A program made the position numbers and the translations under genes. The notes under the pieces were generated by a model. That model was not told where the DNA came from. It made no database searches and saw only the letters and a list, made by a program, of their open reading frames with translations. This document shows positions 17,624 through 20,226 of a stretch of DNA of 64,000 nt, piece by piece (positions within the stretch are counted from its first letter, which is position 1; each line of letters begins with the position of its first letter). Source of the stretch: Acidobacteria bacterium Mor1 (GTDB lineage: Bacteria; Acidobacteriota; Polarisedimenticolia; Polarisedimenticolales; Polarisedimenticolaceae); NCBI GenBank assembly GCA_001664505.1, contig CP011806.1, positions 1,967,443-2,031,442 of the forward strand, given 5' to 3'.

Positions 17624-18136
17624 TCAGACCGCCGATTCGGAGTCGGCCGAAGGCGCCGGGGCGGTTCCACCCCGGCCTCGCGCCCATTGCAACGCAATGG
17701 CGGCAACTCCGGTTCCCAGGAACAGGCCGATCACCGCTCCGGTACCGACCCCGAGGAGTGCCCGGGGCACATTGGGCAGATTGGGCAATCCCAGGATCCC
17801 GAGCCCCACGTCCAGCACGTTGAGCCCCAGGGCGGCCAGGAACCAGGAGGTCGGGGGCCGGTAGCCGGGCCTGGCCAAGAAACCGTAGGCCCACAGCCCC
17901 AGGGTCCCGCCGGCATAGAGCCCGATGCATCGGGCGCAAACCGCCATGGGCTCACCGTCGATCATCAGGCTGCGCCAGGGCATCTGGTGGCAGCTCGGCG
18001 ATGCCAGCAGGCGGATCACCGCCGCCGGCCCCTCGGCGAGAAAGGGGGGCAAGGCGAGGGTCACGGTGAAGGCGGTGGCCAATGCGGCCACGGCCCATAC
18101 CAGCCCGCGGCTCCACCAGCGCTCCTTTCGGGTCAT
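17624..18136 (-). CDS. DUF2085 family membrane protein
   Basis: A 170-residue membrane protein with the DUF2085 signature: CHQMPWRS in the first loop, then [12 protein letters not shown] at the start of a helix. These conserved Cys and His residues define the family, whose function is unknown. About four membrane helices. GGAGG lies 4 nt before ATG 18136. It heads a three-gene minus-strand set of small membrane proteins and is divergent from the Topo VI gene. Confidence 0.8.
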
Positions 18137-18222
18137 CGGTCCTCCGGTCGCTCCTGTCGGATTCTATCGAAACCCAGGAGGGTGGATATAGAATCCCGGC
18201 GTCTCGATCGATGGAGGGGCCG

Positions 18223-19830
18223 ATGGCCGCGACCCGCAAGACCGCGAAGAAGACCGGCACGAAGAAGAAGGCGCGCTCCCGCGAAGACGCCACCTCGATG
18301 GCCGCCCGGCAGCGGGACATCTCCGTCTCCGAATTCTTCACCAAGAACCGCCACCTGCTCGGCTTCGACAACCCGCAGAAGGCGCTGTTGACCACGATCA
18401 AGGAAGCGGTGGACAACTCCCTGGATGCCTGCGAAGAGGCGGGCATCCTGCCGGAGCTGATGATCGAGATCATGGAGATGGGCCCCGAACGCTACCGGGT
18501 CGCGATCCAGGACAACGGCCCCGGCATCGTCAAGGCCCAGGTGCCCAAGATCTTCGGCAAGCTGCTCTACGGCTCGAAGTTCCACCGCCTCAAACAGCAG
18601 CGGGGCCAGCAAGGCATCGGTATCTCGGCGGCGGGCATGTACGGCATGCTGACCACCGGCAAGCCGGTACGGATCTTCTCGCGCACCGGAAAGCGCAAGC
18701 AGGCCCATCAGTTCGAGGTCGCCGTCGACACCAAGAAGAACGCCCCGGTGGTGAGCAAGGACGACGTGGTCGAGTGGCCGGTCGACCATGGCACCCGGGT
18801 CGAGATCGAACTGGAAGCGACCTACAAGAAGGGACGCCGCTCGGTGGACGACTACATCGAGCAGACCGCCCTGGCCAACCCCCACGCCACGATCTTCTAC
18901 TACCCGCCCAAGGGAGAAGCGGTTCAGTACCCCCGGGTCTCGCCGGAACTGCCCAAGGAAGCCCTGGAGATCAAACCGCACCCTTACGGCGTCGAACTCG
19001 GCATCCTGATGCGGATGATGAAGGAGACCCAGGGCAAACACCTGCGGAGCGCGCTCCAGCAGGATTTCAGCCGGGTCAGCGGCGCCGTGGCCGACAGGAT
19101 CATCGAGGAGGCCAAGCTGTCGCCCAAGGCGCGGCCCAAGAGCCTCAACGCCAACCAGCTCGAAGCGCTGTTCAAGGCGATTCCCAAGGTCAAGGTCCTG
19201 GCGCCGCCGACGGCGTGCCTTTCCCCCATCGGCGAAGAGCTGCTGGCCCGCGGACTGGACACCCGGATCCCGTCGGATTTCTTCACCGCGGTGACCCGCC
19301 CTCCGGCGGTCTACCGGGGCAACCCGTTCCAGATCGAGGTCGGCCTGGTCTACGGCGGAGAACAGCCTGCCGACGAGCTGGTGACCCTGTATCGCTTTGC
19401 CAACCGGGTGCCGCTGCAGTACCAGCAATCCGCCTGCGCCATCAGCAAGTCGGTGCTGGGTACCGATTGGAAGAAGTACGGCCTACAACAGTCCCGGGGT
19501 GCCCTGCCGACCGCGCCGATGTCGGTGGTGGTGCACATCGCGTCGGTCTGGGTGCCGTTCACGTCGGAGTCCAAGGAGGCGGTCGCCTCCTACCCCGAGA
19601 TCATCAAGGAGATCCGGCTGGCGCTGCAGGAAGCCGGCCGGCGGTTGGCCACCTTCGTGCGCAAGCGGCGCCGGGAGGCCGACGAACTGAAGAAACGGGC
19701 CTACATCGAGCGCTACATCCCCCACATCGGCGACGCCCTGGGAGATATCCTCGGCTTCTCCGAACGCAAGAAGGCCAACACGGTTTCCAACCTCAAGACG
19801 ATCCTCGAACGCAGCCGCAAGATGGGCTGA
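18223..19830 (+). CDS. top6B: DNA topoisomerase VI subunit B
   Basis: A 535-residue type IIB topoisomerase ATPase subunit, the length of archaeal Top6B. The GHKL ATPase motifs are intact: EAVDNSLDA at 61-69 (motif N1, Asn65), DNGPGI at 97-102 (N2) and [14 protein letters not shown] at 128-141 (ATP lid). A central H2TH region ([19 protein letters not shown]) and the transducer domain follow. The N-terminal 25 residues are Lys/Arg-rich. The start ATG 18223 has GGAGGGG just upstream. The DNA-cleaving subunit A (Spo11-like) is not adjacent and not in this window. Topo VI is typical of archaea and plants and sporadic in bacteria. Confidence 0.93.
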
Positions 19831-19846: not shown

Positions 19847-19884
19847 TGGGCGGCGGCGAAGATCGCCGGACCCGGGAGACGACC

Positions 19885-20226
19885 ATGATCGAACTGATCT
19901 GCACCAAGACCTGAAGCACCTGTCGCAAGGCGGTCGCCTTGCTCGACGAACACGGGATCGAGTACCGCTACCGGGAGTACCGCAAGGAGCCGCTCTCGGC
20001 GACGGAGATCCGCTCGGTGCTGAAGAAGCTGGGCCTGAAGGTCCACGACGTGCTGCGCAAGAACGACAAGGCGTTCAAGGAGCTGAGACTGCGCGGCGAT
20101 GAACCGGCGTCCAAGCTGATTCCGCTGATGGCCGAGCACCCGACTCTGCTGCAGCGCCCGATCGGTGTCGCCGGCAACAAGGCGGTGGTCGGCCGCCCCC
20201 CGGACAACCTGCTCGAGTTGAAGTAG
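19885..20226 (+). CDS. ArsC/Spx-family thiol oxidoreductase, candidate selenoprotein (TGA codon 10 read as Sec)
   Basis: A 113-residue arsenate-reductase-family protein when the in-frame TGA at 19912-19914 is read as selenocysteine. The N-terminus becomes MIELICTKT-U-STCRKAVALL, placing Sec10 at the position of the catalytic cysteine of ArsC/Spx/YffB proteins (family pattern CxxCRKA); the resolving Cys13 is kept, giving a UxxC redox motif. The rest is a full ArsC fold ending LLQRPIGVAGNKAVVGRPPDNLL, including the family's RPI motif. GGGAG lies 6 nt before ATG 19885. Starting after the TGA (TTG 19939) would remove the active site. Substrate unknown: arsenate, disulfides or peroxides are possible. 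The gene is 54 bp after top6B. Confidence 0.88.
19912..19942 (+). promoter_or_regulatory. bacterial SECIS element for selenocysteine insertion
   Basis: The TGA (19912-19914) is followed after 10 nt by a perfect 7-bp stem, GCAAGGC (19925-19931) with GCCTTGC (19936-19942), closing the loop GGTC (19932-19935). Bacterial SECIS hairpins are read by SelB just after the UGA; they need a G in the apical loop at about 16-37 nt from the UGA, and the well-studied E. coli fdhF element has a GGUCU loop. Here the loop begins 17 nt after the UGA. The stem lies wholly within the coding frame. Confidence 0.85.

Follow-up and report, generated by a model that had tools for sequence, protein, structure and literature searches.

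The window, that is the whole stretch of 64,000 nucleotides that was analysed, contains at 19885-20226 of the forward strand a reading frame for a protein of the ArsC fold with an in-frame TGA, as can be read directly from the DNA. The gene starts at the ATG at 19885, where the sequence-only reading had placed an ATG with a ribosome binding site. The frame continues for 103 codons past the TGA to a TAG stop at 20224-20226. Reading the TGA as selenocysteine (Sec) gives a protein of 113 residues (MIELICTKTUSTCRKAVALL...GRPPDNLLELK), which matches Pfam ArsC with 60 bits (cut-off 24), in agreement with the earlier description of a tenth-codon TGA followed by a complete ArsC-like protein. The same description had put the TGA on the active-site cysteine position, and in alignments it does coincide with the catalytic Cys of both ArsC and Spx, in a [C/U]xxC motif. 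A plain listing of open reading frames misses this gene, giving only a fragment of 95 residues that is devoid of the active site. The features of the locus are as follows.

19874-19878, forward strand: Shine-Dalgarno-like GGGAG, separated from the ATG by 6 nt, read directly
19885-20226, forward strand: gene for the ArsC-fold selenoprotein, with 113 codons and a TAG stop, codon 10 being TGA for Sec
19900-19902, forward strand: Cys6, at the position of ArsC His-8 (from alignments), invariant in the 12-member Sec clade
19912-19914, forward strand: TGA codon for Sec10, the predicted catalytic selenol, TGA in 13 of 13 close homologues
19921-19923, forward strand: invariant Cys13, partner of Sec10 in the UxxC pair and its predicted resolving thiol
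19925-19942, forward strand: bacterial SECIS hairpin GCAAGGC-GGUC-GCCUUGC, assigned from conservation, covariation, a recoding test and a published model
20056-20058, forward strand: Arg58, equivalent of ArsC Arg-60 (from alignments)
20155-20157, forward strand: Arg91, equivalent of ArsC Arg-94 (from alignments)
20194-20196, forward strand: Arg104, equivalent of ArsC Arg-107 (from alignments), a residue that Spx lacks

Conservation of the TGA codon

With a profile built from four family members, 396 genomes of the phylum were searched. This yielded 13 close homologues, including the window's own, from 11 genera and seven families (f1, f19, f26, f54, f58, f76 and f87 in the numbering of the scan); f1 accounts for four genera, that of the window among them. 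Alignment of homologues, to see whether they carry TGA or TGC at this codon, had been proposed as a check. Codon 10 is TGA in every one of the 13, and among the close homologues retrieved from the 396 genomes there is none with Cys at this position. The next matches, from E = 1e-28 downward, are either Cys forms or other groups of selenoproteins.

A tree of 65 sequences included the 12 full-length members of the Sec group, which form one clade (support 99/97) with no Cys member. Other Sec forms in the tree (L029-L034; L080/L081/L087; L044) sit in separate branches, and this scatter suggests that Sec and Cys have been exchanged independently several times. With the present group, the ArsC superfamily, which elsewhere switches repeatedly between the two residues, gains a conserved clade that is clean in its use of Sec alone.

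The SECIS hairpin

The SECIS hairpin that had been proposed to follow the TGA was located 10 nt after it. The hairpin has a stem of 7 bp and an energy of -11.1 kcal/mol, and its GGUC loop (19932-19935) lies at a spacing of 17 nt from the UGA. The published model of the bacterial SECIS has a stem of 4-16 bp, an N1-G-[G/U]..N2 loop and a UGA-loop spacing of 16-37 nt (PMC13188914); as applied here it calls for G in the first two loop positions and a minimum free energy of -7.5 kcal/mol or lower (PMC13188914). The window hairpin falls within all four printed criteria of this model (PMC13188914).

Taken as a single sequence the hairpin is unremarkable. Its fold has a z-score of -0.51, which is of no significance, and 14% of synonymous recodings of the window sequence alone yield a stem of at least 7 bp somewhere. 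A scan of the window for a TGA motif plus a hairpin returned six loose candidates, the Sec gene and five others that were judged by eye, so this pattern alone is not discriminating. The hairpin carries weight because it has been kept across relatives. Over 12 sequences 95 of 96 hairpin cells are paired, with a covariation score of 0.117 against 0.037 for shuffled data. Compensatory changes convert the stem pair C15-G30 to U-A in L023 and the cross-loop pair G21-C24 to C-G in L065 and to A-U in L066. The covariation across the loop (G-C, C-G and A-U around the G-U loop-base pair) argues independently for the pairing of N1 with N2 in the loop of the bacterial SECIS model.

Synonymous identity is higher over codons 14-20 than elsewhere (0.75 versus 0.52, permutation p 0.005). 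In 20,000 independent synonymous recodings 95 pairs were never attained, the maximum being 79 of 96; this comparison ignores relatedness and so overstates the strength of the result. The codon for Leu19 is always TTG or TTA, in keeping with what stem pairing requires. L068 has an A-A mismatch and an 18-nt hairpin of only -6.1, and in L067 a C stands for the second G of the loop; in each of them a G remains within the first two loop positions. Judged by these comparisons, the hairpin is conserved more than the protein sequence would demand, and it is under selection.

Selenocysteine machinery

The genome containing the window is a single contig of 5.985 Mb (99.98% complete). It encodes SelA (516 bits), SelB (330 bits, above cut-off), SelD (358 bits) and a tRNA-Sec (selC) with anticodon TCA, the full set for which a search had been recommended. 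Its selD gene (L010, G000:C1:2910488-2911429, reverse strand) has a TGA at its own catalytic position (...SCAGUASKMGP), hence it is very probable that at least one further gene here uses UGA for Sec. Of the 13 genomes with the Sec ArsC-like gene, 12 gave a selA match; the one carrier that gave none (G135) is an assembly of 750 contigs, and its congener G188 has selA. The presence of selA was discarded as a discriminator within the class, where 39 of 41 genomes have it.

Conservation and the machinery together strongly support the predicted insertion of Sec at codon 10, in which SelB with Sec-tRNA(UCA) would bind the GGUC-loop hairpin just 3' of the codon. That the window gene is a real selenoprotein we regard as close to certain.

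Family assignment and active site

The closest family is TIGR00014 arsC, with 90.1 bits when C is written for U, below the cut-off of 106.05. TIGR01617 (Spx/MgsR) gives 62.8 bits, below 75.05. NF041106 (ArsC_rel_Se_1), the curated family of ArsC-like selenoproteins, gives 24 bits, below 85, and is matched at all by only 6 of the 12 clade members. No curated NCBIfam family thus scores above its cut-off with the window's protein. The read-through product also matches glutaredoxin PF00462 (31 bits). The AlphaFold model of the protein (pLDDT 91.9) has arsenate reductases as its best structural matches, at TM 0.91-0.92, versus 0.80 for Spx.

The three arginines R58, R91 and R104 are invariant in the 12-member Sec clade; their ArsC equivalents, Arg-60, Arg-94 and Arg-107, are reported to be necessary for ArsC function (PMC5155266). 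The His-8 of classical ArsC is not found, position 6 being Cys in all 12 clade members. PMC5155266 cites a paper of 1996 whose title reports that His-8 lowers the pKa of Cys-12 in ArsC. Since the clade combines the three ArsC arginines with a Cys for His-8 and with Cys13, it resembles ArsC more than Spx. Of the earlier label 'ArsC/Spx-like', the ArsC fold stands, and the assignment narrows to the ArsC type with the full arginine triad and a score short of the Spx cut-off.

Model for function

We propose, with high confidence, that the gene encodes a working ArsC-fold selenoprotein in which Sec10 is the nucleophile and reduction of arsenate or a related oxyanion is the likeliest activity. By analogy with the ArsC and Grx families, Sec10 would lie at the N-terminus of helix 1 and attack an oxidised substrate held by Arg58, Arg91 and Arg104. 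Cys13 would resolve the Sec intermediate to give an intramolecular selenenyl-sulfide, which thioredoxin or glutaredoxin would then reduce. Cys6 would have taken the place of the pKa-lowering His-8; Sec would already be deprotonated at cell pH, so a histidine that lowers the pKa of Cys-12 would not be needed. The protein lends itself to testing what Sec contributes when an ArsC-type enzyme no longer has its activating histidine. More tentatively, the clade may represent an uncatalogued, Sec-only ArsC subfamily in which Sec and Cys6 replace the catalytic pair of His-8 and Cys-12 and Cys13 renders the enzyme self-resolving, a selenol-driven arsenate or oxyanion reductase with no close Cys counterpart.

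The substrate is the less certain part. Reduction of arsenate or a related oxyanion is the likeliest predicted activity, the alternative being a Grx-like disulfide or peroxide redox enzyme, at roughly even odds. There are no ars genes in the context of the window's Sec gene, and the relatives have no conserved gene neighbourhood, synteny being shared only by two f58 genomes. The arsenite exporters ACR3 and ArsB are absent from the window's genome, and ACR3 is above cut-off in 7 of the 13 genomes carrying the Sec gene. Given the lack of a conserved neighbourhood, the missing exporters and the incomplete occurrence of ACR3, arsenate reduction by this protein is predicted only as possible. The gene 54 bp upstream (18082-19830, forward strand) encodes a topoisomerase VI B subunit (694 bits, PRK04184), here in a bacterial genome; a match to the A subunit lies far off, at G000:C1:5771501. 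A functional link with the B subunit gene was rejected because it does not adjoin the Sec gene in relatives.

The same selenoprotein could serve instead in general thiol or peroxide redox chemistry, as a Grx-like reductase or sensor, a reading that competes with the substrate half of our proposal only and has a chance not far short of one in two. The UxxC motif resembles that of thioredoxin-fold redoxins, the PF00462 match points the same way, and so do the missing exporter, the want of ars neighbours in relatives and the presence of ACR3 in only some carriers. Against such a role stands the invariance in the clade of the ArsC arginine triad, two of whose three residues have been lost both by Spx and by L029-L034.

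A role as an Spx-type transcription regulator that senses redox state and binds RNA polymerase is improbable. A CxxC-type motif, the similarity to TIGR01617 and the Spx crystal structures among the structural matches are what such a regulator would display, but that similarity is sub-threshold, ArsC is the better structural match, and the protein has equivalents of Arg-60 and Arg-107, both of which B. subtilis Spx lacks.

All that speaks for a pseudogene, a sequencing error or a chance stop in an ordinary Cys-type arsC is the stop that the window sequence shows when taken by itself. Conservation effectively excludes these: TGA, with protein-level constraint on both its sides, recurs in independent genomes of seven families and the hairpin is kept by selection, all of which argues, as the sequence-only reading had held, for a selenoenzyme rather than a pseudogene. 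Equally implausible is a product of 95 residues that starts downstream at the TTG at 19939, a frame present in the mechanical ORF list, so that the TGA is never translated, for L4, I5, C6 and T9 before the TGA are invariant in 12 relatives and the shorter product would, on the model, be without strand 1 and the entire active site.

Relation to known selenoproteins

ArsC selenoproteins with a UxxS motif were described from 14 Sargasso sequences (PMC1088965), and a UxxC form is the 'Arsenate reductase 2' of the GOS data, cd03032 (PMC2398784). ArsC-like selenoproteins also occur in the Deltaproteobacteria Desulfotalea and Desulfuromonas (PMC1794560). Both the UxxS and UxxC kinds have been known since 2005-2008, so the kind to which the window's protein belongs is not new; its clade is a new one within a known kind. 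The sequence-only reading had noted that arsenate-reductase-like selenoproteins have been reported from marine metagenomes, and the literature does contain ArsC-like selenoproteins, UxxC forms included (PMC1088965, PMC2398784, PMC13188914).

The Sargasso Sea and GOS ArsC 1 proteins (PMC1088965, PMC2398784) share with the window's protein the ArsC family, Sec at the catalytic Cys and a bacterial SECIS just downstream, but they are UxxS proteins, whereas the window's protein has a resolving Cys in a UxxC motif and Cys6 in the place of His-8. GOS Arsenate reductase 2 (PMC2398784) and NF041106 (PMC13188914) have in common with it the UxxC motif and the ArsC/Spx superfamily; the score against NF041106 nevertheless falls far short of the cut-off. 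The clade may or may not fall among the GOS 'ArsC 2' sequences. The deltaproteobacterial proteins (PMC1794560) are likewise ArsC-like with Sec. Grx-linked ArsC (V. cholerae 3f0i; E. coli R773 1i9d) has the same fold (TM 0.9) and the Arg-60/94/107 triad, but in the window's protein Cys-12 has become Sec, the Ser at +3 Cys and His-8 Cys. Spx of B. subtilis (3gfk) shares the fold and a CxxC-type redox pair and differs in the two arginines noted above.

Further Sec forms were seen among the sequences compared. L029-L034, of the same class and family f5, make up a second ArsC-like Sec clade with the motif TUTSCRKA and without equivalents of Arg-60 and Arg-107. Their SECIS is AGCAAAA-GGUC-UUUUGCU, with the loop 21 nt after the UGA; in L031 and L034 an A-U pair has become G-C. 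L035 (G005) carries an f5-type Sec gene that appears frameshifted near the active-site codons, as a pseudogene or through an assembly error. In family f30, the YEKPT[U/C]TTCRN ArsC-like proteins have Sec forms (L080/L081/L087) interleaved with Cys forms (L076/L077), which suggests recent switching; our guess is that these Sec forms (YEKPTUTTCRN), on their separate branch, are possibly of the deltaproteobacterial kind. A Bacillota MAG encodes an Spx/ArsC-type protein (L044:2989-3342, forward strand; 112 bits, above the TIGR01617 cut-off) whose CxxC motif has TGA for its first Cys, followed by a hairpin AGCCAA-GGC-UUGGCU; it is the sole Sec form among Cys homologues.
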